A DNA stretch of 10,317 bases. Source: an uncultured Pseudomonas sp. GTDB taxonomy: Bacteria > Pseudomonadota > Gammaproteobacteria > Pseudomonadales > Pseudomonadaceae. The notes below the pieces were generated by a model that worked only from the letters and a program-made list of their open reading frames with translations, was not told the DNA's origin and made no database searches. The DNA lies in NCBI RefSeq assembly GCF_946885885.1, contig NZ_CAMPHN010000152.1, positions 1 through 10,317 of the forward strand, read 5' to 3'. The first letter of the stretch is position 1; each line of letters starts with the position of its first letter. This document shows positions 1 through 10,317 of this stretch, piece after piece. The translations under genes and the position numbers were made by a program.

Positions 1-54
1 TTAAAATCCCTCGGGGGTAACCCCGTGCCGGTTCGATTCCGGCTTCGGGCACCA
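1..54 (+). tRNA. tRNA-Leu (anticodon UAA), 3' part only
   Basis: The window opens inside the anticodon loop. Bases 2-4 read TAA as the anticodon and 7-11 are the 3' side of the anticodon stem. A long class II variable arm follows, with GGGG at 14-17 pairing with CCCC at 21-24. The T arm is complete: GCCGG (27-31), the loop TTCGATT (32-38) and CCGGC (39-43). The acceptor strand TTCGGGC (44-50), discriminator A51 and encoded CCA (52-54) finish the gene. The extended variable arm restricts it to Leu, Ser or Tyr, and the TAA anticodon makes it leucine. The 5' half (acceptor strand, D arm and start of the anticodon arm) lies outside the window. Confidence 0.95.
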
Positions 55-63
55 TTGACATGA

Positions 64-91
64 TTTCAGATGTTCCCTAATGAACCTGAAA
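64..91 (+). other. Bulged hairpin just 3' of the tRNA
   Basis: TTTCAG (64-69) pairs with CTGAAA (86-91), and GTTC (72-75) pairs with GAAC (82-85). The two-base bulge AT (70-71) and a six-base loop (76-81) complete a 10-bp stem. It starts ten bases after the CCA end and sits before the terminator. It could be part of the tRNA 3' trailer that affects processing, or a dyad of another origin. No T-run follows it, so it is not the terminator. Its function is unknown. Confidence 0.4.
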
Positions 92-97
92 CCCACT

Positions 98-125
98 AAA
101 ACCGGCACTCTCAGCCGGTTTTTTT
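98..125 (+). terminator. Rho-independent terminator of the tRNA transcript
   Basis: AAAACCGGC (98-106) and GCCGGTTTT (114-122) form a strong 9-bp stem around the 7-base loop ACTCTCA. The stem runs directly into a T-tract ending at 125. It lies 44 bases downstream of the tRNA CCA and in the same orientation, so it most likely ends the tRNA-Leu transcript. This separates the tRNA from the operon that starts at 391. Confidence 0.85.
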
Positions 126-202
126 GTGCGTGGTGATCGGTTGAATTCGGTGACTTTAGCGGGCGCTCAGTTCAAAAGAGGGTGGCGCCTGTCCTAGTCG
201 TA

Positions 203-225
203 CTAAGTCAGCGGCGCTGACCTAG
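203..225. promoter_or_regulatory. Near-perfect dyad upstream of the five-gene operon (possible operator)
   Basis: GTCAGCG (207-213) and CGCTGAC (215-221) are perfect inverted arms around a single central G. Beyond one mismatched pair (206/222), CTA (203-205) and TAG (223-225) extend the symmetry to 23 bases. Its size and short centre fit a dimeric regulator site better than a terminator, and no T-run follows. It lies about 165 bases before the start codon of the SWIM gene. No -35/-10 pair convincing enough to report was seen nearby, so the role as an operator is inference. Confidence 0.3.
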
Positions 226-253
226 CGCGCGGAGATGTCGCGGCAGTGCTCGA

Positions 254-276
254 GGCAGACTTAAGCATGGTCTGCC
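254..276 (+). other. Hairpin in the leader region before the operon
   Basis: GGCAGAC (254-260) pairs perfectly with GTCTGCC (270-276) across a 9-base loop. Only a short TTT follows (280-282), so it would be a weak terminator at best. It may be a leader structure or a second regulator site. A separate 12-bp palindrome, CTTGGCGCCAAG, lies at 312-323. Nothing else in 126-390 was recognised. Confidence 0.3.
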
Positions 277-390
277 GCATTTGCCTAATTGTCTAAGAGC
301 GATTGCACAGTCTTGGCGCCAAGGGCTTTCTTCGGCACGGGCTTGTGTCATCATCCGCGTCCTTATCGAACGGATTCCAATAAGCATCCC

Positions 391-1749
391 ATGCAGTTTT
401 CCCGTGAACTCATTCTTCAGCAGGCGCCCGATGACTCGTCCGCCAAGGCTGCCCAGGGCCTGCTCAATATCGCCAAATGGCAAACTCTCGGGGCCAACGA
501 ACGGGCTCTGTGGGGCGAGTGCAAGGGCAGCGGCAGCAATCCGTACCAGGTGCAGATTGACCTGAGCGCCCTGGCTTTCAAATGCAGTTGCCCAAGCCGT
601 AAATTCCCTTGCAAGCACGGTCTGGCGCTGGCGTTGATACGTGCCGAACAGAGCGCGGCGTTCACCAGCTCCGAGCTACCGACCTGGGTTGGCGAGTGGC
701 TGGAGGGGCGTCAGCAACGCACCGAGAAGCAGGAGCAGAAGAAGGCCACGGCCCCAGTGCGCAAGAGCGCGGATGACACTGCTGTGCCGGCCAAACGTCT
801 GCAGCGCATGGCAGCCGGGCTGGATGAGCTGGAGCGTTGGCTGCAGGATCAGGTCGCTCAAGGCCTGGCCGGGCTGATCGGCAACGAGGGCGCATTGGAG
901 CAACTGGCCGCGCGTATGGTTGATGCACAGCTGCCAGGCGTGGCGTATCGCCTGCGCCAGCTCGGCGGTGTTCCCGGCAGTGGTGTGATCGATGGGGTGG
1001 ATTGGCCCCTGCGGCTGCTGGGCGCCTTTGGCCGTTTGCAGTTGATGATCGATGGTTTTCGCCGATTCGACAGCCTTCCGCCCGCGGAGCGCGCCGATCT
1101 GTCCCAGGCCCTAGGCGTGCCGCTGAGCAAGGACGACGTACTGAGTCAGGGCGAAGCCTGTCGCGATGAGTGGCATGTGCTGGGGCAGTACGTTGAGGAG
1201 GAGGATCGCTTGTGGCTGCGGCGTGTCTGGCTCCGTGGCCTGAACAGCGGCCGCATGGCGCTGTTGCAGGACTACGCTCACGGCTCGCGACGTTTCGAGC
1301 AGGGCTTTCTCGGCGACTCGGTGATTGCCGCCGACCTGGCCTTCTACCCCGGCGCCCATCCGTTGCGAGCGATACTTGCCGGCGCGCCGACGTTGCTCCA
1401 GCGTGCCGTAGAAACCCCGCCTGCGCCTGCGCGTCTGGCGCTCGATAAATTGTCCGCCGCGTTGGCGGCGAATCCCTGGCAGACGCCGCGACCGATGTGT
1501 GTCGACGATGGCGTGCCCGAGCGGGATCCGCACAGCGGCTGGGTGTTGCGTATTCCCGGGTTGGCTATCGATGGCGCCGTGCCGCTGCGCCTGGACGAGC
1601 GCGATGGCTGGAACCTCTGTGCCCTCGCGGGCGGTCAGCCGCTGCGCCTGTTCGGCGAATGGCAGCAGGGGGTCGAGGGTTGCTACCTGCGGCCCTTAGC
1701 CGTCTGGCTGGATCAGACACTGGTCTGGTCGCCACAGGAGAGCGCTTAA
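391..1749 (+). CDS. SWIM zinc finger family protein
   Basis: This encodes a 452-residue cytoplasmic protein. The SWIM zinc finger sits near the N-terminus as C65-x-C67-x6-C74-x-H76, inside the run KCSCPSRKFPCKH. SWIM domains are known to bind DNA or proteins through zinc, and the specific target here is unknown. The segment before the finger (LWGECKGSGSNPYQV, residues 40-54) is also typical of this bacterial family. A charged, Lys/Gln-rich linker at about 108-125 separates it from a long C-terminal region without a motif I recognise. I chose the ATG at 391 because family similarity begins there. The frame stays open back to a TTG at 289, but those 34 extra residues are not SWIM-like. No clear Shine-Dalgarno precedes 391, so the start is less certain than the family. 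It is the first gene of the operon, and its stop overlaps the next start by one base (TAATG). It appears to correspond to E. coli yehQ, judged from memory. Confidence 0.9.
   Translation: MQFSRELILQQAPDDSSAKAAQGLLNIAKWQTLGANERALWGECKGSGSNPYQVQIDLSALAFKCSCPSRKFPCKHGLALALIRAEQSAAFTSSELPTWVGEWLEGRQQRTEKQEQKKATAPVRKSADDTAVPAKRLQRMAAGLDELERWLQDQVAQGLAGLIGNEGALEQLAARMVDAQLPGVAYRLRQLGGVPGSGVIDGVDWPLRLLGAFGRLQLMIDGFRRFDSLPPAERADLSQALGVPLSKDDVLSQGEACRDEWHVLGQYVEEEDRLWLRRVWLRGLNSGRMALLQDYAHGSRRFEQGFLGDSVIAADLAFYPGAHPLRAILAGAPTLLQRAVETPPAPARLALDKLSAALAANPWQTPRPMCVDDGVPERDPHSGWVLRIPGLAIDGAVPLRLDERDGWNLCALAGGQPLRLFGEWQQGVEGCYLRPLAVWLDQTLVWSPQESA
1736..1740 (+). promoter_or_regulatory. Ribosome binding site for the DUF5691 gene
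   Basis: AGGAG lies eight bases before the ATG at 1749, inside the last codons of the SWIM gene. It fixes the start at 1749 rather than at the upstream in-frame candidates back to 1497. Together with the TAATG overlap it points to translational coupling. Confidence 0.75.
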
Positions 1750-3362
1750 TGAGCTTGCTCGAACCCCTCGCGGTCACCGCGCTGCTCGGTACCCGTAAAC
1801 AGAAGCCTGCAACGCTGGCGGTCGAAGGCAGTATCGGCACTTTGCTCGATGCCATCGCAGGTTCGTCGGTAACCGATGAAGCCATCCTTCTGCGCACGGC
1901 GGCGGTGCTCGACATCTGCCAGCAGGCCGGTTGGGTCGCTGCCGACGCTGGTATGACGGCTACGCCCTCAGCCCCCATGGATTCGCTGGCGCTACCACCG
2001 ACGGCGGCTGTGCCGCTGCTGACTCAGGTATTCGCCGAAGGATATGAACGCCTCGGCCAGTTGACCCTGCTCCAGCTGGCCCGCCGTCAGCTGCGCCTGC
2101 CGCCCAGCCTGCTGGCCGATCTGCTGGACAAGGCGCGGCGTGATAGCGCCCTGCGCAGTCTGCTCGCGCCGGTACTGGGCGAGCGGGGGCGCTGGCTGGC
2201 CGAGCGCAATCCGGCCTGGCAGGTGCAGGCCATCGACCGTACGGTGGCGCCCGATGAAGAGGCGTGGGACTTCGGCAATCTCGATCAGCGCGTAGCCTAC
2301 TTGAGTGCGCTTCGCGCGCGCGATCCGGCTGCGGCCCGCGATCGTCTGGCGGCCGCGCTGAAGGAACTGGATGCCCGAGAGCGCGCAGCGCTGGCGCGTG
2401 CGCTTGCCACGGGCCTGACGATGGATGACGAAGCGCTGCTGGAGAGGCTCCGGGGGGATCGCAGCAAGGAGGTGCGGCGCGCGGCTGTCGAACTGCTCGC
2501 ACTGTTGCCCACTTCGAGCTATGTGCGGCGGATGGCGGAGCGTCTGGCGCAGTGCCTGACCTTCCCTCAGCCCGAGGCCGAGTCCGGCGGCTTGAAGGGA
2601 CTGTTCAAGCGTGTCGCCAAGGTCATTTCAACTGAGCCGGTGCTGCACATCGAACCGCCGGAGAGCTTCTTCTCCGGCGGCAAGGACGATCAGCTGGAGG
2701 AAGCCGTTCCCGCTGGCGAAGGGCTTGGCCAGCGCGCCTGGTGGCTGTATCAACTGGTGGCCGTCTCACCGTTGCAATGGTGGTGCGAGCACAGCGCCTT
2801 GGCCCCCAGAAAACTGGTGGCTGGGGCCGCTCTTACTGATTGGGATGAGGCTATGGTACGCGGCTGGTACCAGGCCACGCTGCGTGAGGAGGATGCCACA
2901 TGGGCGGCGGCCCTGCTTGATCGTCTGTCGCCCAAGGGCACGCATTTGTCGCGCAGTTTTCTCGACAGCCAACCACTGATTGCTCTGTTGCCACTGACCG
3001 AGCGCGAACGACACTGGCTGCACATCGCCGCGAACGGCGTCGAACGCGGTGCGCTGAGCCTGTCCGAGCTGCTTGATCAGATCGTCACTGCTGTACCTGT
3101 CGAGGCGCAGCCGAGCGCCGATTTCTGCCGCCAGTTGCTGCCTCATCTACGCAACTGGATAAGTCAGCCCCGTTCCGCCCACGACTACAACCTGCGCCAG
3201 GCTATGCGCGCCTTCGCCACGCTTCTGCCCTTGGAGACCTTCGCCGAGGCTCGCCGGGGCTGGCCCGATGGCGAGGCCTTGAGCCGTCATCAGTGCGATG
3301 CCCTCGACGATTGGCGACACACCCTGACCCTGCGCGAAAACCTCCAGCAACTTCTCGATTGA
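1749..3362 (+). CDS. DUF5691 domain-containing helical protein
   Basis: This encodes a 537-residue protein with no signal peptide and no membrane segment. It is assigned to DUF5691 by its opening (LLEPLAVTALLGTRKQ), its overall length and its place between a SWIM gene and a MoxR gene. The sequence is rich in Leu, Ala and Arg and reads as consecutive amphipathic helices. One unit, near residues 235-255 (RSKEVRRAAVELLALLP), looks like a HEAT repeat, so a helical-repeat scaffold is a reasonable inference. A Gly/Lys-containing stretch near 278-290 (GGLKGLFKRVAKV) and the following acidic segment probably form a flexible break before the Trp-rich C-terminal half. No catalytic motif was seen. It overlaps the SWIM stop by one base and ends 13 bases before the ATPase gene, so it likely belongs to the same complex or pathway. 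The family has no established biochemical function that I know of. Confidence 0.82.
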   Translation: MSLLEPLAVTALLGTRKQKPATLAVEGSIGTLLDAIAGSSVTDEAILLRTAAVLDICQQAGWVAADAGMTATPSAPMDSLALPPTAAVPLLTQVFAEGYERLGQLTLLQLARRQLRLPPSLLADLLDKARRDSALRSLLAPVLGERGRWLAERNPAWQVQAIDRTVAPDEEAWDFGNLDQRVAYLSALRARDPAAARDRLAAALKELDARERAALARALATGLTMDDEALLERLRGDRSKEVRRAAVELLALLPTSSYVRRMAERLAQCLTFPQPEAESGGLKGLFKRVAKVISTEPVLHIEPPESFFSGGKDDQLEEAVPAGEGLGQRAWWLYQLVAVSPLQWWCEHSALAPRKLVAGAALTDWDEAMVRGWYQATLREEDATWAAALLDRLSPKGTHLSRSFLDSQPLIALLPLTERERHWLHIAANGVERGALSLSELLDQIVTAVPVEAQPSADFCRQLLPHLRNWISQPRSAHDYNLRQAMRAFATLLPLETFAEARRGWPDGEALSRHQCDALDDWRHTLTLRENLQQLLD

Positions 3363-3375
3363 AACGGACGTAATC

Positions 3376-4461
3376 ATGGAAACCAGCCCGGTACTGCGCC
3401 AACACGCCGAACAGCAATTCGCCGAAGAACTCGAGCAACTGCGCAAGCAGGACAGCCGCCAGCGACCGACCAACTGGGAGCTGTCGCCCTGGGCGGCGGT
3501 AACTTACCTGCTCGGTGGCAAGCTGGACAACGGTTTCGAGGTCAGCGCCAAGTACATCGGCAACCGCCGCCTGATCGAAACCGCCGTCGCCACTCTGGTC
3601 ACCGACCGCGCGCTGCTCCTGTACGGTGTGCCTGGTACCGCCAAATCCTGGGTGTCCGAACACCTGGCTGCAGCTATCAGCGGCGACTCCACGCTCATCG
3701 TTCAGGGCACTGCCGGTACCAGCGAAGAGCAGATGCGCTATGGCTGGAACTACGCGCAGTTGCTGGCCAAGGGGCCGTCCCGCGAGGCGTTGGTCGAAAG
3801 CCCGCTGGTGCGCGCGATGGAGCGCGGCAAGACGGCGCGCATCGAGGAATTGACGCGTATACCCGCCGATGTGCAGGACACGCTGATCACCATGCTGTCG
3901 GAGAAATCCCTGCCCATTCCCGAGCTGGGTAGCGAGGTCCAGGCGGTGCGCGGTTTCAATGTCATCGCCACGGCCAACAACCGCGACAAGGGTGTCAACG
4001 AGCTGTCCTCGGCGCTCAAGCGACGCTTCAATACCGTGGTGCTGCCGGTGCCTTCCAGCGAGGCGGAGGAAGTCGCGATCGTCAACAAGCGCGTGGCGGA
4101 AATGGGCCGGGCGTTGGAGCTGCCCGCTGAGCCACCGGCCCTGGCCGAAGTGCGGCGCGTGGTGCAGATCTTCCGTGAGCTGCGCAACGGCCTGACCGAG
4201 GACGGCAAAACCAAGCTCAAGTCGCCCAGCGGCACCTTGTCTACCGCCGAGGCGATTTCCGTGATCAACAGTGGCATGGCCCTGGCCGCCCACTTTGGCG
4301 ACGGTATGCTGCACGCCAACGACGTAGCGGCGAGTCTGGTCGGCACGGTGATCAAGGATCCGGTGCAGGATGCTGTGGTCTGGCGCGAGTATCTGGAGAC
4401 CGTGGTAAAGGAGCGTAGCGACTGGAAAGACCTCTATCGCGCCTGCCGCGATATCGAGTGA
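3376..4461 (+). CDS. MoxR-type AAA+ ATPase
   Basis: This encodes a 361-residue cytoplasmic AAA+ ATPase of the MoxR branch, thought to remodel or load partner proteins using ATP. Walker A is GVPGTAKS at residues 84-91. The Walker B position reads ARIEELTRIP (154-163), with E157-E158 where most MoxR proteins carry an acidic D-E pair after hydrophobic residues. Sensor 1 is in VIATANNRD (196-204). Arg-finger candidates lie in LKRRF (214-218), and a C-terminal lid covers about 250-361. The usual Arg of sensor 2 is not obvious: the matching segment reads SGTLSTAEA (285-293). Length fits E. coli YehL, about 360 residues from memory. ATG 3376 follows a weak GGA (3366-3368). The gene lies 13 bases after the DUF5691 gene and 7 bases before the DUF5682 gene. 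The VWA partner expected for a MoxR protein is encoded two genes downstream. Confidence 0.93.
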   Translation: METSPVLRQHAEQQFAEELEQLRKQDSRQRPTNWELSPWAAVTYLLGGKLDNGFEVSAKYIGNRRLIETAVATLVTDRALLLYGVPGTAKSWVSEHLAAAISGDSTLIVQGTAGTSEEQMRYGWNYAQLLAKGPSREALVESPLVRAMERGKTARIEELTRIPADVQDTLITMLSEKSLPIPELGSEVQAVRGFNVIATANNRDKGVNELSSALKRRFNTVVLPVPSSEAEEVAIVNKRVAEMGRALELPAEPPALAEVRRVVQIFRELRNGLTEDGKTKLKSPSGTLSTAEAISVINSGMALAAHFGDGMLHANDVAASLVGTVIKDPVQDAVVWREYLETVVKERSDWKDLYRACRDIE

Positions 4462-4468
4462 TCGAGCC

Positions 4469-6754
4469 ATGTCCGACGCCATCCACCTGTTCGGTATTCG
4501 CCACCATGGCCCCGGCTGCGCGCGCAGCCTGCTGCAGGCCTTGCAGGCGCTGCAACCCGATTGCCTGCTGATCGAGGGGCCGCCGGACGCCGAGGCGCTA
4601 TTGCCGTTCGTGCTGCATGAGCAACTGCAGCCGCCGGTGGCCCTGCTGGTGCATGCCGAGGGCGATTCCCGACAGGCCAGCTTCTATCCATTCGCCGAGT
4701 TCTCTCCAGAGTGGCAGGCGTTGCGCTATGCCCGGGAGCAGGGCATCGAAATCCGCTTTATCGATCTGCCGGCGTGCCATCAGTTCGCCTTGGAGAAGGC
4801 CTGGAGCGAAGAGCAGCAGGAGTCAGCCGATGACGAGACGGTCGGGCTGGCGGAGCAGGCCGAAAGCGAGCCAGAGCTGAGCCACGATCCGCTTGGCTGG
4901 TTGGGGCGCGCCGCCGGTTACGCGGACGGCGAGGCCTGGTGGAACCACATGGTCGAGGAGCGGTGCGACGGCGAGCAGCTCTTCGCCGCCATTGCCGAGG
5001 CGATGCAGGCGCTGCGCGAGCAGGCGCCGGTCGAGCGCTCGCCGCATCGTGCAAGGCGGGAGGCTTTGCGCGAAGCGCATATGCGCAAATGCCTGCGCCA
5101 GGCCCTGAAGGATGACTACCAGCGTATCGCCGTGGTCTGTGGGGCCTGGCACGTACCGGCGCTGGCCTGCCTGCCGGCTGCCAAGGTCGATAACGATCTG
5201 CTCAAAGGGCTGCCGAAGATCAAGGTGGCGGCGACCTGGGCACCCTGGACCTACCGCAACCTGAGCAGTGCCAGCGGTTACGGCGCGGGCATCGACGCGC
5301 CGGCCTGGTATGCGCATCTGTGGCGCAGCCCAGACCCCGCGCAGCGTGCTGTCACCTGGCTGTCGCGGGCCGCGAGGTTGTTCCGTGAAGAGGGCCTGGA
5401 CTGCTCGTCGGCCCATATCATCGAGGCGACTCGTCTGGCCGAGAGCCTGTCGGCCTTGCGCGAGCGTCCCGCCGCCGGCCTGGACGAGCTCTGCGAAGCG
5501 CTGCAGACCACGGTGTGCATGGGCGATGCCACTCCCATGCGGCTGATTCGCGACCGTCTGATCGTCGGTGATCGCCTGGGCACTGTGCCGGCCGACGTGC
5601 CGGCCGTGCCGCTGCAGCGCGATCTTGAACAACAACAGAAGAGTCTGCGTATGAAGCCGCAGGCGGCGCAAAAGACCCTCGACCTGGATCTGCGTGAGCC
5701 GGGTGATCTAGCCCGCAGCCACCTGCTACATCGCCTGAGCCTGCTCGGCATCCGCTGGGGGGAGCAGACCCGCAGTGTGGTGTCGGCCAAGGGCACCTTC
5801 CATGAAATCTGGTCGCTGCAATGGCAGCCTGAACTGGCTGTGGCGGTAATCGAGGCCAGTCAGTGGGGATGCATCGTCGAAGACGCCGCCAGCGCCTGCG
5901 CGGTGGACAGGGCTCAGGCGGCCGAGTCGCTGCCCGTGCTCTCGGAACTGGTCGACCAGGCGTTGCTGGCCCATCTGCCGCAGGCGGTGGCGCCCGTCAC
6001 CCGAGCGCTGGAAGACCTCGCGTCGGTAGCCACCGACGTCGCCCAGTTGCTCGATGCTGTGCCAGCGCTGACCCGCATCGCTCGCTATGGCAACGTGCGC
6101 CAGACCGATAGCAGCATGGTGCTGCACCTGCTCGATGGCCTGATCGCCCGTGCGGCCATCGGCCTCTCGGCGGCCTGTGCGGCGTTGGGCGACGACGCTG
6201 CTGGCGCCATGCGCGAGCGCATTGGCAAGGCAGATGCCGCCATTCGCCTGCTCGACGATCCGGCGCGCAGCCAGGACTGGCAGCAGGCACTCGCTCGGCT
6301 GGCAGTTTTCGGTGCCAGTCATGGCCTGCTCTGTGGGCAGGCAGCGCGCCTGCTGTTCGATGCCGGTGTCGATGATGTCGATGCCTGTGCGGTGCGTATG
6401 AACCTGGCCTTGTCGCGCGGCGTGGAGCCTGCAGTCGCGGCCGCCTGGCTTGAGGGCTTCCTTGACCAGAGCGCGCTGATCCTGATGCACGATCCGCGCT
6501 TGTGGGCGATGGTTGACGGCTGGCTCGCAGCGCTGAGCGACGATCACTTCGAACGTATCGTGGCGTTGCTGCGCCGCACTTTCAGCACCTTTTCCGCAGC
6601 CGAACGTCGCGAGCTGGGGGAGCGCGCTCGTCGGCCGGCGACCGCGGCGGTATCCGAGCGGCTGGAGGCTCGATGGGATACGCCGCGAGCGGCTCTTCCT
6701 GTGCCACTGCTCAGCCGGCTGCTGGGCCTGACTAACGATGGAGCGTCCTCTTGA
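4469..6754 (+). CDS. DUF5682 family protein with TraB/Tiki/ChaN-like N-terminal domain
   Basis: This encodes a 761-residue protein without signal peptide or membrane segment. The N-terminal 230 or so residues carry motifs spaced as in the TraB/Tiki/ChaN/EreA superfamily. These are FGIRHHGPG (8-16, with H12 and H13), a strand ending in LLIEGPPD (33-40, E36), FIDLP (97-101, D99), a helix REAHMRKCL (201-209) and a closing VVCGAWHVPAL (222-232, H228). In that superfamily the two Gly-x-x-His motifs and the acidic residues form a putative metal-binding hydrolase site. A low-complexity acidic insert lies at about 114-138. The rest (about 260-761) is Ala/Leu-rich and helical, with no motif I can name. 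Length matches E. coli YehM, about 760 residues from memory. It starts 7 bases after the ATPase gene without a strong ribosome site and overlaps the VWA start by four bases. Hydrolase activity is inference; the family is officially of unknown function. Confidence 0.88.
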   Translation: MSDAIHLFGIRHHGPGCARSLLQALQALQPDCLLIEGPPDAEALLPFVLHEQLQPPVALLVHAEGDSRQASFYPFAEFSPEWQALRYAREQGIEIRFIDLPACHQFALEKAWSEEQQESADDETVGLAEQAESEPELSHDPLGWLGRAAGYADGEAWWNHMVEERCDGEQLFAAIAEAMQALREQAPVERSPHRARREALREAHMRKCLRQALKDDYQRIAVVCGAWHVPALACLPAAKVDNDLLKGLPKIKVAATWAPWTYRNLSSASGYGAGIDAPAWYAHLWRSPDPAQRAVTWLSRAARLFREEGLDCSSAHIIEATRLAESLSALRERPAAGLDELCEALQTTVCMGDATPMRLIRDRLIVGDRLGTVPADVPAVPLQRDLEQQQKSLRMKPQAAQKTLDLDLREPGDLARSHLLHRLSLLGIRWGEQTRSVVSAKGTFHEIWSLQWQPELAVAVIEASQWGCIVEDAASACAVDRAQAAESLPVLSELVDQALLAHLPQAVAPVTRALEDLASVATDVAQLLDAVPALTRIARYGNVRQTDSSMVLHLLDGLIARAAIGLSAACAALGDDAAGAMRERIGKADAAIRLLDDPARSQDWQQALARLAVFGASHGLLCGQAARLLFDAGVDDVDACAVRMNLALSRGVEPAVAAAWLEGFLDQSALILMHDPRLWAMVDGWLAALSDDHFERIVALLRRTFSTFSAAERRELGERARRPATAAVSERLEARWDTPRAALPVPLLSRLLGLTNDGASS
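6740..6743 (+). promoter_or_regulatory. Ribosome binding site supporting a TTG start
   Basis: GGAG at 6740-6743 lies seven bases before TTG 6751, inside the end of the DUF5682 gene. There is no ATG in frame near this point; the ATG at 6763 is in another frame. The site and the TTGA overlap together support TTG as the true start of the VWA gene. Confidence 0.65.
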
Positions 6755-7950
6755 GCGACAACCATGACTATCAGTTGGACGAAGCGCAGCGCGGCCGTCT
6801 CCGGCGCTGGCGTTTAGTGCTCGGCGAAGCGGCGGCGCAAAGCCTGGGCGACTGCGGCCTGGATCGAACCCAGCAGGATATCGATGCTGCCCTGACCGCG
6901 CTCTATGATCCCGACGGGCCTGGTGGCCTTCGCCGTGGAGGCAGCGGCAAATCCTCGCCGAAGGTCGCGCGCTGGCTTGGCGACATTCGCAAATACTTCC
7001 CCAGCCAGGTCGTTCAGGTGATGCAGAAGGACGCCCTGGAACGCCTGAACCTCAAGAGCATGTTGCTGCAGCCTGAGATGCTCGAATCGGTTCAGCCGGA
7101 CGTGCATCTGGTGGCGTCGCTGGTTTCCCTGTCTGGCGTCATTCCTGCGGAAACCAAGGACACCGCCCGCCAGGTGGTGCGCAAGGTAGTCGACGAATTG
7201 ATTAGGCGACTGGAGGAGCCAATGCGCAGCGCTGTGAGCGGGGCGCTCAATCGGGCAGTACGCAACAACCGCCCGCGGCATTCCGAGATCGATTGGAGCC
7301 GCACCATCCGCGCCAACCTGCGCCACTGGCAGGAAGAGTACAGAACCATAGTGCCGCAGACCCTGATCGGCTATGGTCGCAAGGCGCAACGCAGCCAGCG
7401 CGACATCATTCTGTGCATCGACCAGAGCGGCTCGATGGCCGCCTCGGTGGTCTATTCGAGCATCTTCGGCGCGGTCATGGCCTCGCTGCCTGCGGTGAAG
7501 ACTCACCTGGTGGTCTTCGATACCGCAGTGGTGGACATGACCGAAGAGTTGGAGGACCCGGTAGATCTGCTGTTCGGTGTGCAATTGGGTGGCGGCACCG
7601 ATATCAACCGCGCAGTCGGCTACTGCCAGAGCCTGATCCGCGAGCCGCGCAACACCATCATGGTGCTGATCTCCGACCTCTACGAAGGCGGCGTGGAGAA
7701 AAACCTGCTACAGCGTGCCGCCGAGCTGGTGGCGTCGGGTGTGCAGCTGATTACCCTGCTGGCGCTCAGTGATGAGGGGCGACCGTTCTACGATGCCGAG
7801 TTGGCCGCCAAGCTGGCCGCGCTGGGTGTGCCGTCCTTCGCCTGCAGCCCCGACCAGTTCCCCGACCTGATGGCCGCCGCGATTAGCAAGGAAGACATCG
7901 GCCTTTGGGCCGCAAAGAAGGGCATCGCGACTGCGCGCGCCAAGGGCTAA
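6751..7950 (+). CDS. VWA domain-containing protein with complete MIDAS
   Basis: This encodes a 399-residue cytoplasmic protein. The C-terminal half is a von Willebrand factor A domain from about residue 217. Its metal-ion-dependent adhesion site is complete: D224-Q-S226-G-S228, T283 in GGGTDI, and D309 in LISDLYEGG. This predicts Mg2+ or similar metal-dependent partner binding. The N-terminal half (1-210) is helical and Arg-rich with a Gly-rich loop (57-66) and has no motif I recognise. VWA proteins of this type are known partners of MoxR ATPases, and the MoxR gene is in the same operon. The TTG start at 6751 overlaps the DUF5682 stop (TTGA) and has GGAG seven bases upstream. Size and content match E. 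coli YehP from memory. It is the last gene of the operon and is followed by a hairpin with a T-run. Confidence 0.93.
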   Translation: MSDNHDYQLDEAQRGRLRRWRLVLGEAAAQSLGDCGLDRTQQDIDAALTALYDPDGPGGLRRGGSGKSSPKVARWLGDIRKYFPSQVVQVMQKDALERLNLKSMLLQPEMLESVQPDVHLVASLVSLSGVIPAETKDTARQVVRKVVDELIRRLEEPMRSAVSGALNRAVRNNRPRHSEIDWSRTIRANLRHWQEEYRTIVPQTLIGYGRKAQRSQRDIILCIDQSGSMAASVVYSSIFGAVMASLPAVKTHLVVFDTAVVDMTEELEDPVDLLFGVQLGGGTDINRAVGYCQSLIREPRNTIMVLISDLYEGGVEKNLLQRAAELVASGVQLITLLALSDEGRPFYDAELAAKLAALGVPSFACSPDQFPDLMAAAISKEDIGLWAAKKGIATARAKG

Positions 7951-7961
7951 TAGCGTCCCGC

Positions 7962-8004
7962 GCCAAAATCGGCTGTCAATAAAGTAAGCGCTGATTTGGC
8001 TTTT
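7962..8004 (+). terminator. Probable rho-independent terminator of the five-gene operon
   Basis: GCCAAA (7962-7967) pairs with TTTGGC (7995-8000). After a single bulged A (7968), TCGGC (7969-7973) pairs with GCTGA (7990-7994), including one G-U pair. TTTT (8001-8004) follows the stem. It begins 12 bases after the VWA stop. The loop of 16 bases is longer than usual, so efficiency may be moderate. It does not have the T-run needed to serve the convergent minus-strand gene. Confidence 0.55.
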
Positions 8005-8055
8005 GGAGTCGGGGGGGATTTATTTGAGCAAAGCCAACAGTTGCTGGTGAGGCTG

Positions 8056-8451
8056 CTATTGGCAGCTTCGGTTGCCCGCCGCAACCATCTCATCAATGAT
8101 CCTGTGGATCGTGCTTTGCAGCTGCTTATCTTCCAGCATGGTTTCCGCGACTTTCTTGGCCACGCGTTCGAAATTCGTGTGCTCCAGAATGCTTTCGCCG
8201 AACTCCCAACGCAGTATTTCCTGGATCGTAATGATCGGCGCTGTTTCCTGAAAGTTGCCTGGGCCTTGCTTGAGCTTGGTCAGGCGATCCTGCAAGCGGG
8301 CGCGCAATACGGCTGGGGAGCGTTGCCCCTTTTGTGTTCTATCCGATGTGGCTTCTTTTGCGTGTTGCGCCGAACTCGAATGAACCCGCTCTTTCGGTTT
8401 ACTTAACGAGGCAAGAACACGAGAAAGCCGAGCGGGATCGATCTGTGGCAT
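8056..8451 (-). CDS. Hypothetical protein, 131 residues, lower-GC orphan
   Basis: The protein starts MPQIDPARLSRVLASL, has a polar, charged linker at about 18-45, then an amphipathic helix (RLQDRLTKLKQ, 52-62). A compact C-terminal helical region follows, with the notable string IQEILRWEFGESIL (near 75-88). I do not recognise the family. The minus strand is preferred over the overlapping plus-strand frame 7996-8406 for two reasons: GAGG lies eight bases before the ATG, and the composition reads as a soluble helical protein. GC and codon use are visibly lower than in the operon next door, which suggests separate acquisition. The ATG directly abuts the stop of the broken frame upstream, so the two were probably once one operon. 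It converges on the VWA gene. No function can be given. Confidence 0.65.
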   Translation of the reverse strand: MPQIDPARLSRVLASLSKPKERVHSSSAQHAKEATSDRTQKGQRSPAVLRARLQDRLTKLKQGPGNFQETAPIITIQEILRWEFGESILEHTNFERVAKKVAETMLEDKQLQSTIHRIIDEMVAAGNRSCQ

Positions 8452-8692
8452 TTAAGGCGCCTCGAGTGTTTCGCGATAGGCGCCCAGGAAAACAGGGGTG
8501 GCTGGCGCGCGCATGCTCCTGCGGCGCCTGATGGTATAGATATTTTGTAAACACCCTCTAGGGGACTGCAGCAGTTCGATATCGCTCTTCAGCGAGGCCC
8601 AAGGCCTTGCAGCGCTGCAGGTTGCCCAGACGCAACCCATGCAGCACCTGGGGCAGCATGGCTTGGTTGAGCAGGCTGAAGCCCAGGCTCAT
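8452..8692 (-). pseudogene. Frameshifted remnant of a small gene, DUF2857-like N-terminus
   Basis: A minus-strand ATG at 8692 is preceded by a strong GGGGGA six bases away. It opens a 44-residue frame (stop at 8558) that reads MSLGFSLLNQAMLPQVLHGL, then RLGNLQRCKALGLAEE. The pattern LNQ-x-(M/V)-L-x-QVL-x-x-LR-x-GNL-x-RC-x-ALG resembles the N-terminus of DUF2857 (STY4526-type) proteins known from integrative conjugative elements. This match is from memory. Soon after, similarity appears to continue in another frame, read from about 8605 as KSDIELLQSP. That frame runs to a TAA at 8452-8454, just before the next gene's ATG, ending FLGAYRETLEAP. A single-base shift near 8595-8606 would join the two. 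Even joined, the product is about 80 residues, roughly half the length I expect for DUF2857, so an internal deletion is also likely. Loss of function is inferred. Confidence 0.45.
8460..8463 (-). promoter_or_regulatory. Ribosome binding site for the 131-residue gene
   Basis: CCTC on the plus strand reads GAGG on the minus strand, eight bases upstream of the ATG at 8451-8449. It supports both the strand choice and the start. Confidence 0.5.
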
Positions 8693-8754
8693 GATTCATC
8701 CCCCGGTATGCCTTCGGCAGATATCAGATCGATAAGCCGGCGAGCCCTGCGGAT

Positions 8755-8861
8755 GCGCGGAAAATCTCGCCATGCGGTGTTGTAGGACTTGGCAAGGGAA
8801 CAACCATTACCTGCGTCCTACGCCTGGCGGAGAACCGCCCGGCCATGGCGAGATTTTGCGC
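8755..8861. repeat. Compound inverted repeat, MITE/REP-like element candidate
   Basis: AAAATCTCGCCATG (8761-8774) is a perfect 14-base inverted match to 8844-8857. GCGC flanks it on both outer sides (8755-8758 and 8858-8861), offset by a two-base bulge. Inside, GTAGGAC (8782-8788) pairs with GTCCTAC (8815-8821), and GGCGG (8826-8830) pairs with CCGCC (8835-8839) over the loop AGAA. The whole unit is about 107 bases, carries no gene, and sits between the broken gene and the carboxypeptidase gene. The size and nested symmetry resemble small non-autonomous elements. A role as a 3' structure for the carboxypeptidase transcript is the alternative. Nothing further was recognised in the rest of 8693-8894. 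Confidence 0.5.
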
Positions 8862-8894
8862 AGCATGCGGCTTGCGCTGAAACGGCAACAGACC

Positions 8895-10317
8895 CTAGCG
8901 AATATCCACCGTGTAGTCTTCCACCTCGCCATAGTTGAAGGTGCCGCATGGCGTTGGGGCCGTGCTGTAGCGCATCGCCACGCGCATCCGGGTTTTGCCT
9001 GGCGCGGTGCCCGCTGGAATCGCCAGGTTACCGGTCACCATGCTGGAGAGGGCGCGGCCGGAGCTGAACACTTCTTCGCCGCTGTCGAAGGTGCCGTTAC
9101 GGTTCAGATCGATCCAGACTTTCCAGTACTCGTTGTACGCGCGTCCGGAGAACTGCGGCGTCAGGCTCAGGCTGTTGGCGCCACGCGCCAGGGGAACGGT
9201 ATCGCCGGTGAAATCGGAGTATCGGCTCGAACCCGATGCTTTGGCGAAACTACCCACCGCGACCCGGCCGATCCATTCTTCGCTGGCATTACCGCTGCCC
9301 GCTGCGCAATAGCTCAGCGGCGGTTCACCACCGTCTTCGCCTATCACCAGGAATGCCGCCGTCACCGCGCCCCAGGTGCCCGAGGTATCGCGGCTGCGCA
9401 CATAGACCATGTGCTTGCCCAGCGCTAAATCGCCCGTATAGACGGTGCCGGTCAACGCCTCGGTCTTGCCGTTGAAACTGCCATCCTGCGCTTGCAAGGG
9501 GATAGCGCTGGCGCCGGCTTCCCAGGGGGCTTTGTCGATGTAGTACTCGGCCGCGGCGATGTTCTGTGTCGCCTCGGTGCCGCCGCTGTTATTGAAGCGG
9601 GTATCGGTTGCGCTGGCGCTCAAGGTCACCACCGTGCCGGCGGGAACCCCCGTGCCGGATGCGCTGCCGCTCAGGCTGACCGCGGTGATATCCGGGCCGC
9701 CGGGGGTGATATAGGGCGTGCGCACCACCTTGGCGGCATAAATCAGCGCCGGCAGGTTGCCCGGTTTGATGGTGTTCTCGTAGGTCGTGCAGTTCTGGAA
9801 GAACTGGGTACCCAACTCGAAGGTGTAAGCCGCTACACCGAGTTCGCCGTAGCTGATGCCGTCGCTGGTGCCGTCGGTGGGATACAGGCCGATCGACTGC
9901 TGCGGCGCATAGCCGTTGAAGAAGGCGAACTTACGCCCGAGGGTTTGCAAGGCGGGACCGTTGGGTGCCGGCTGGCTGGTATCGCCCCAGGGCCAGAGCA
10001 CCAGTTGGCTGTAGCTGTGGATATCCAGATGGATACCGCTGGTGTCGCTCGGTGCCGGGTCGTTCCTGCCGGTGCCGCGGCGATCCGGCCAGAGAGCGCG
10101 TAAGTAACCTTCCAGCGCCTGGATCTCCGGCTCGGAGCCGGCGCTGGGGCCGCGGTAAGTCTCGTTGCACTGGCTGCCGCTGGAACCCTGGCCATTGGTG
10201 CTGTTCCAGCCGAAGGTGAAGTTGCGGTTGAGGTCGGCGCCGCGGCTGTTGCTGTTGGCGCTGCAGTAGTTCTGGTTGGCGTTCTTGCGCCACGACAGCC
10301 CGGATTCGGCTTTTTTG
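8895..10317 (-). CDS. M14 zinc carboxypeptidase with C-terminal GEVED domain, 5' end outside window
   Basis: The frame is open from the right edge (first full codon 10316-10314) to TAG at 8897-8895, giving 473 residues. Family M14 enzymes remove C-terminal residues with a zinc ion. Seen here are the substrate-binding ADLNRNF (27-33), the third zinc ligand H100 in LDIHSYS, and LYPTDGTSDG with the specificity Tyr (near 145). The catalytic Glu is E167 in YTFELG. The HxxE zinc motif and any signal peptide must lie beyond the window. After the catalytic domain (to about 198) comes an Ig-like segment (about 205-326). A GEVED domain follows (about 335-473), with an Asp/Asn-rich loop DLNRNGTFD (403-411) that may bind calcium and the name-giving GEVED at 463-467. 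Such architecture is typical of secreted peptidases. The ATG/GTG-type start at 10001 is internal, because the catalytic domain continues upstream of it. Confidence 0.9.
   Translation of the reverse strand, partial: KKAESGLSWRKNANQNYCSANSNSRGADLNRNFTFGWNSTNGQGSSGSQCNETYRGPSAGSEPEIQALEGYLRALWPDRRGTGRNDPAPSDTSGIHLDIHSYSQLVLWPWGDTSQPAPNGPALQTLGRKFAFFNGYAPQQSIGLYPTDGTSDGISYGELGVAAYTFELGTQFFQNCTTYENTIKPGNLPALIYAAKVVRTPYITPGGPDITAVSLSGSASGTGVPAGTVVTLSASATDTRFNNSGGTEATQNIAAAEYYIDKAPWEAGASAIPLQAQDGSFNGKTEALTGTVYTGDLALGKHMVYVRSRDTSGTWGAVTAAFLVIGEDGGEPPLSYCAAGSGNASEEWIGRVAVGSFAKASGSSRYSDFTGDTVPLARGANSLSLTPQFSGRAYNEYWKVWIDLNRNGTFDSGEEVFSSGRALSSMVTGNLAIPAGTAPGKTRMRVAMRYSTAPTPCGTFNYGEVEDYTVDIR

Follow-up and report, generated by a model that had tools for sequence, protein, structure and literature searches.

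MoxR-type AAA+ ATPases paired with VWA proteins occur widely, and what they do is mostly unclear; the YehL subfamily has been named without a function (PMC3893208). For the NorQ-NorD pair, a model places the VWA domain in the middle of the MoxR ring, and an acidic patch of the client has been proposed as the binding partner of its metal ion-dependent adhesion site (MIDAS; PMC9976466). In this study, a locus that joins a MoxR-VWA pair to three further genes was analysed computationally. The window, that is, the whole stretch of DNA analysed, comprises 10,317 nucleotides from an uncultured Pseudomonas sp. (NCBI RefSeq assembly GCF_946885885.1, contig NZ_CAMPHN010000152.1, positions 1 to 10,317 of the forward strand). 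It carries the operon SWIM-DUF5691-MoxR-DUF5682-VWA at positions 391 to 7950. These five genes almost certainly form one functional unit, and we assign the N-terminal domain of its DUF5682 protein, with high confidence and for the first time here, to the TIKI/TraB fold. The genes and their motifs are as follows.

391..1749, + strand: SWIM zinc-finger protein, 452 amino acids (Pfam SWIM, E 5.9e-6)
583..618, + strand: SWIM motif CxCx6CxH, read in the sequence
1749..3362, + strand: DUF5691 protein, 537 amino acids (Pfam PF18944, E 4.6e-119)
3376..4461, + strand: MoxR AAA+ ATPase of the YehL type, 361 amino acids (Pfam AAA_5, E 3.1e-38)
3625..3648, + strand: Walker A motif GVPGTAKS; G, P, G, T and K in 125/125 sequences with letters there (126 aligned)
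3844..3849, + strand: Walker B acidic pair Glu-Glu (RIEELTR); E-E in 125/125 sequences with letters there
4469..6754, + strand: DUF5682 protein, 761 amino acids (Pfam PF18934, E 1.7e-265)
6751..7950, + strand: VWA_CoxE protein, 399 amino acids (Pfam PF05762, E 9.7e-52)
7420..7434, + strand: MIDAS motif DxSxS (DQSGS) of the VWA protein, in 124/124 sequences with letters there (126 aligned)

The open reading frames (ORFs) and the sequence confirm the layout given by the original prediction, which described five collinear genes with gaps of −1, 13, 7 and −4 bases. The TTG start of the VWA gene lies across the DUF5682 stop, with a four-base overlap. The claimed lack of an internal terminator agrees with a coarse consensus scan, which found no terminator-like site on the + strand within the operon; the single match there lies on the − strand. 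A MoxR-type AAA+ gene has a VWA gene adjacent to it, and according to the alignment both the MoxR Walker A motif and the VWA MIDAS are intact, the other MIDAS residues being Thr283 (118/125 sequences) and Asp309 (124/124). The usual Walker B acidic pair is Asp-Glu. Assignment of the ATPase to YehL follows PMC3893208 and synteny with yehL rather than a subfamily tree. A PDB sequence search matched the MoxR protein to midasin and NorQ, returned one match for DUF5682 (E 0.52) and none for VWA. The DUF5691 model is an all-alpha HEAT/ARM-like solenoid (mean predicted local distance difference test score, pLDDT, 90.7), and its structural matches are mostly helical-repeat proteins.

Gene-neighbourhood conservation was assessed with DUF5682 as the anchor. 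The protein search scored at least 7992 candidates, every one a relative, and the locus set consists of the best 80 of at least 543 confirmed relatives from genome contigs. All five profiles matched in 67 of the 80 loci, and in 64 the five were separate genes in the window order on one strand, always led by the SWIM gene. The three remaining five-profile loci comprise one with SWIM and DUF5691 in one protein (L074) and two at contig ends (L016, L080). At least one gene was missing from 13 loci; a contig end explains five of these (L030, L058, L066, L069, L078) but not the other eight (L027, L035, L047, L049, L050, L059, L061, L063). Outside the five, no family was common to more than 6/80 loci, in a set that includes spurious antisense ORFs. 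The SWIM profile behind the 80-locus counts, the typing of comparison loci and the motif counts included a fused protein; for the same reason, a match between the DUF5691 and SWIM profiles (probability 100) was rejected as an artefact. The SWIM motif was present in 89/92 SWIM-A and 19/19 SWIM-B matches, and the alignment lacks it in L016, L056 and L066. Among named records, systems with DUF5682 come from Pseudomonadota, Planctomycetota, Cyanobacteriota, Bacteroidota, Deinococcota and Actinomycetota.

Single relatives carry an additional gene inside the operon: a C-5 cytosine methylase (L007, 6832-7782), a NADAR protein (L055, 7704-8150) and a kinase-like protein below the cut-off (L002, 6747-7544). 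Recurrence of these three insertions was not seen.

Because the 80 loci had been picked as best matches, genomes were also drawn by taxon, each draw including its seed genome. DUF5682 exceeded the cut-off in 6/229 genomes from the class of G002 (taken as Gammaproteobacteria), 13/197 from the order of G001 (taken as Enterobacterales), 27/246 from the phylum of G008 (taken as Planctomycetota) and 10/194 from the phylum of G004 (taken as Cyanobacteriota). In the class draw, DUF5691 exceeded the cut-off in 4/229 genomes, exactly those with a DUF5682 of the window type (E 1e-250 or better); the remaining two DUF5682 genomes carry the weaker yeh type described below. DUF5691 matches that fall short of the cut-off occur in another four genomes. 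For this co-occurrence, the naive P value was 9e-9, or 5e-7 with the seed genome left out, both uncorrected for kinship.

The draws yielded a census of 52 DUF5682 loci, from which seed loci, fragments in G525 and G627 and matches below the cut-off were left out; it overlaps the 80 loci in one genome (L152 and L030 are from the same genome), and a cleaned SWIM profile was used. MoxR lay within 2 kb of DUF5682, or overlapped an over-long ORF call, in 47/52 loci; in L152 and L163 the fetched locus ends 883 and 209 bases upstream, and in L181, L183 and L184 DUF5682 stands alone. VWA lay within 2 kb or was fused in 48/52, the exceptions being the same three solitary loci and L185, which is cut. SWIM was found in 39/52, in L170 by its motif only. 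MoxR, DUF5682 and VWA are thus the most constant core of the unit.

A partner search was made in ten genomes. Six are cyanobacteria in which the fetched stretch has DUF5682 without its partners (G799, G683, G747, and G875, G876 and G877, the genomes of L027, L047 and L063). All six encode relatives of MoxR and VWA elsewhere (identity 61-78 and 46-68 per cent, respectively), and five, all but G876, encode DUF5691. The four genes of G747 are on one contig, at 0.73, 2.31, 3.09 and 3.88 Mb. G683 and G747 have similar scores and possibly represent a single case, and DUF5682 of G875 lies near a contig end. The remaining four searched genomes have MoxR and VWA in 4/4 and DUF5691 over the cut-off in 2/4. 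Scattering of the homologues, which the original prediction had named as the outcome that would speak against it, is therefore seen in a minority of loci; most are co-located, and the six cyanobacteria still encode partners. The proposal of one functional unit with a MoxR-VWA core is borne out by locus conservation and the censuses alike.

The same proposal had called the DUF5682 protein enzyme-like; profile, structure and residues now specify this as a TIKI/TraB domain. The features of the protein, whose model has a mean pLDDT of 89.3, are listed with their occurrence in 71 aligned rows.

4469..5338, + strand: predicted N-terminal TIKI/TraB-fold domain, about residues 1-290
4493..4504, + strand: first GxxH motif, G9 to H12; H12 in 71/71 rows
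4574..4576, + strand: Glu36, paired with the conserved TraB Glu in the profile alignment; 71/71 rows
5069..5074, + strand: Arg201-Glu202, paired with Arg-Asp of the TraB ERD stretch; 71/71 and 70/71 rows
5141..5152, + strand: second GxxH motif, GAWH, G225 to H228; G225 and H228 in 71/71 rows
5339..6643, + strand: C-terminal, mostly helical domain, about residues 291-725

In hhalign, the N-terminal part matched a combined TraB/PrgY profile with a probability of 93.7 (P 2e-7). The probability was 65.5 for PrgY alone, 1.4 for GumN only, 0.6 for Ere, 0.3 for ChaN and 0.1-0.6 for non-relatives. In the structural search with the DUF5682 model, TraB chains were the best rows; Ere and ChaN were not among the Foldseek and VIA rows listed, an absence that carries no weight. 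The domain thus has both the TIKI-type core fold and detectable sequence kinship to TIKI/TraB proteins. Two His, the Glu and the Arg are invariant across all 71 rows, while position 9 is Gly in 53, Pro in 17 and Ala in one. TIKI enzymes have been described with a 2His/2Glu residue set (PMC6254334). DUF5682 has both His and the second Glu of this set (H12, E36 and H228, 71/71 rows), but not the first Glu, of the ExH motif, where it reads xxRH instead. TraB rows read GTAH, GSVH or GTMH at this position, so the PrgY/TraB branch likewise lacks the first Glu. The active-site-like residues are kept; catalysis, client and direction of action we infer.

Three types of system can be told apart by gene content and order. 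Type A is the window type, SWIM-DUF5691-MoxR-DUF5682-VWA. Type B has the order MoxR-DUF5682-VWA-SWIM together with DUF4132 and, by the DUF4132 profile, accounts for 13/52 census loci. In Escherichia coli K-12 it is represented by yehL, yehM, yehP and yehQ, with yehI and yehK upstream (Pfam AAA_5, DUF5682 at E 2.4e-98, VWA_CoxE and SWIM); further examples come from Agrobacterium, where DUF4132 lies between DUF5682 and VWA, and Iodobacter. Type C joins DUF5682 and VWA in one protein of 1131 to 1273 residues (L163, L169 and L171 in the census, and L130 on a Streptomyces plasmid); a SWIM gene lies downstream, and L171 also has a DUF4132 protein upstream. The original prediction had treated DUF5682 as a separate actor, which does not hold for these four fusions.

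SWIM and DUF5691 are likely a pair because they are fused in two relatives (L074, L133) and adjacent in most. In some relatives the place of DUF5691 is taken by a protein of 590-682 residues without a DUF5691 match; one of four scanned (L165) has HEAT repeats over the cut-off. In L170, a SWIM motif (Pfam match below cut-off) is joined to HEAT repeats. Homology between DUF5691 and DUF4132 is unsupported, the similarity of the two profiles being weak and confined to 36 columns (P 0.03).

Types A and B are not alternatives, since G280 has both, and G008 has type A plus a SWIM-B locus in which no DUF4132 was detected. The five-gene operon occurs in 30/5426 E. coli genomes, whereas yehM matches occur in 5284/5426 (5166 with at least 80 per cent coverage); the two types are therefore separate systems. 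In E. coli SMS-3-5 the five-gene operon is flanked by gltD and by a stretch that ends in nanQ.

Several yeh-type clusters (L129, L140, L141, L142, L144, L146) contain two or more DUF4132 ORFs in tandem. In E. coli HNSQ2209, yehM is split in two, with an IS5 family transposase between the parts. The DUF5682-like protein of L186 (G855) is very divergent, scoring 95 bits on the family model; VWA and MoxR lie upstream of its gene (order VWA-MoxR-DUF5682), and the locus is perhaps a further type.

We consider the chances about even that the five products work as one ATP-driven hydrolase machine. Such a machine would be built on a MoxR hexamer plugged by the VWA domain, whose MIDAS site would grip an acidic patch of the client. 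The SWIM protein and the HEAT-like DUF5691 protein would recruit that client. ATP hydrolysis would expose a bond, and the docked TIKI-type domain would cut it, most likely a peptide or ester bond; in yeh-type relatives DUF4132 would take the part of DUF5691. A specific arrangement is put forward more tentatively, in which a TIKI/TraB-type hydrolase is carried by, or docks on, the VWA protein through which the MoxR ring works, and an exchangeable SWIM-plus-HEAT adaptor (DUF5691 or DUF4132) chooses the client. If true, this would add to the bacterial AAA+ protease-like systems one that belongs to none of the Clp, Lon, FtsH and HslUV kinds.

In the main rival explanation, DUF5682 itself is the client: MoxR-VWA would mature it by metal insertion or conformational activation, and the matured enzyme would act elsewhere. 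NorQ-NorD and CoxD-CoxE mature their enzymes in this way. The described MoxR-VWA pairs have maturation or assembly roles (PMC7159879; PMC9976466), metal dependence is known for some TIKI enzymes (PMC6254334), and the full retention of the active-site-like residues in 71/71 rows also suits a matured enzyme. However, a factor fused to its own client would presumably be unusual, and four DUF5682-VWA fusions exist; it is not evident what the SWIM and HEAT partners would do in metal insertion, and the lack of a neighbour family common to more than 6/80 loci also argues against maturation, which we regard as fairly unlikely.

The SWIM domain is a zinc finger, and yeh-type clusters contain DUF4132 genes, which is consistent with a role in stress or DNA-damage quality control. 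SWIM and DUF4132 or DUF5691 would then bind nucleic acid or damaged complexes, and MoxR-VWA-DUF5682 would dismantle them. In Deinococcus radiodurans a DUF4132 gene is upregulated after DdrO depletion (PMC8533742), but that gene is not known to lie beside a MoxR-DUF5682-VWA cluster. The DUF5691-DUF4132 profile overlap is short and weak, as given above, and the absence of a neighbour family recurring in more than 6/80 loci weighs against this explanation too; we give it very little credence.

An anti-phage or conflict system akin to the MoxR-vWA ternary systems, in which DUF5682 would be the effector and SWIM-HEAT would do the sensing, would fit the patchy distribution in the four taxon draws and of the five-gene operon in E. 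coli. MoxR-vWA cores occur in predicted conflict systems (PMC7159879), and iSTAND systems fuse vWA to peptidase effectors (PMC12839542). Nevertheless, PADLOC at E 0.001 gave no match for DUF5691, MoxR, DUF5682 or VWA, and the SWIM protein matched one candidate model over residues 8-105 only. Among 103 flanking proteins from 18 loci, PADLOC matches (E 1e-10) fell to 15 models with 10 distinct names, each in at most two proteins, against 40 models matched by 103 control proteins from the same contigs (7 distinct names among the 25 listed); these counts are rough, as many models repeat one name. This small test shows no clear excess of PADLOC names, and the flanks carry ordinary genes (25 of 129 families listed). 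The near-ubiquity of yehM in E. coli is also more like that of a core gene. The evidence for a defence role is weak, and we consider such a role improbable.

Regarding mobility, no relative was found on viral contigs with scan patterns taken from the window protein, which reach close relatives only. One record filed as a bacteriophage (L132, MT835988.1) carries MoxR-DUF5682-VWA near a DUF5717 gene, but it is an unverified faecal scaffold that may be bacterial DNA. Phage carriage was rejected on these two grounds. Matches occur in 36/72,556 plasmid records, and at least 7 of the 30 listed exceed 2 Mb.

The window begins with the 3' end of a tRNA gene (1-54, + strand), whose body lies outside; ARAGORN reports no whole tRNA. 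A hairpin with a T run follows at about 98-125 (+ strand), and the operon starts about 265 bases beyond. Integration at the tRNA was rejected, as the last 25 bases of its 3' end are not repeated in the window with up to three mismatches. Downstream of the operon, on the − strand, lie a 131-residue ORF without a match in Pfam or NCBIfam (8056-8451) and, truncated at the edge of the window, a zinc carboxypeptidase (M14) that carries a GEVED domain at its C terminus (8895-10316).

DUF5682 and DUF5691 are named in none of the open-access papers searched, and none of the matches listed there paired the SWIM term with MoxR or operon terms; the yeh neighbourhood may be described in subscription papers, such as reviews of MoxR subfamilies. 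An enzyme-like partner comes with the unit itself, and its fold can be recognised and its residues tested; the exchangeable partners DUF5691 and DUF4132 point to where a client may be sought. As E. coli K-12 holds the sister cluster yehLMPQ, this long-standing orphan cluster is directly testable in a laboratory strain, and since the conserved unit pairs a remodelling motor with a TIKI/TraB enzyme-like protein, it can be tested as one hydrolase machine.

Among known systems, the ternary conflict systems share with this locus a MoxR, a vWA and a third constant protein (PMC7159879). Here, however, the third component is DUF5682 and not VMAP, iSTAND, FtsH or a beta-propeller; the bpMoxR model stayed below its cut-off on the window (23.7 versus 27 bits), and SWIM, TIKI, TraB and YehL do not occur in the main text of that paper. 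With the TIKI/TraB/PrgY superfamily, DUF5682 shares the fold and the His/Glu/Arg/GxxH pattern, its profile match lying in the PrgY/TraB branch, but in DUF5682 some 430 residues of helical domain follow, and the protein is tied to MoxR-VWA.

NorQ-NorD, CoxD-CoxE and RavA-ViaA likewise place a MoxR ATPase beside a MIDAS VWA protein. They serve a separate client enzyme or complex, whereas here the unit itself includes a TIKI-fold protein and SWIM-HEAT proteins; the window MoxR also differs in its Glu-Glu Walker B pair. In the type C fusions, the TIKI domain is N-terminal of VWA, on the same side as the NorD domain proposed for specificity.

Also among the closest systems is yehLMPQ, where MoxR, DUF5682, VWA and SWIM genes are likewise clustered. 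The original prediction had matched the window to this cluster with a separate DUF5691 gene added; the kinship stands, but DUF5691 is not a mere extra, as DUF4132 replaces it in the yeh type. The window does not show the yeh-type combination of MoxR-DUF5682-VWA-SWIM order, nearby DUF4132 and no DUF5691. In K-12, SWIM comes last and is longer (614 amino acids), DUF5691 is absent, the DUF4132 gene yehI lies upstream, and DUF5682 is matched much less strongly (E 2.4e-98 versus 1.7e-265 in the window). The window operon is a sister type of yehLMPQ.

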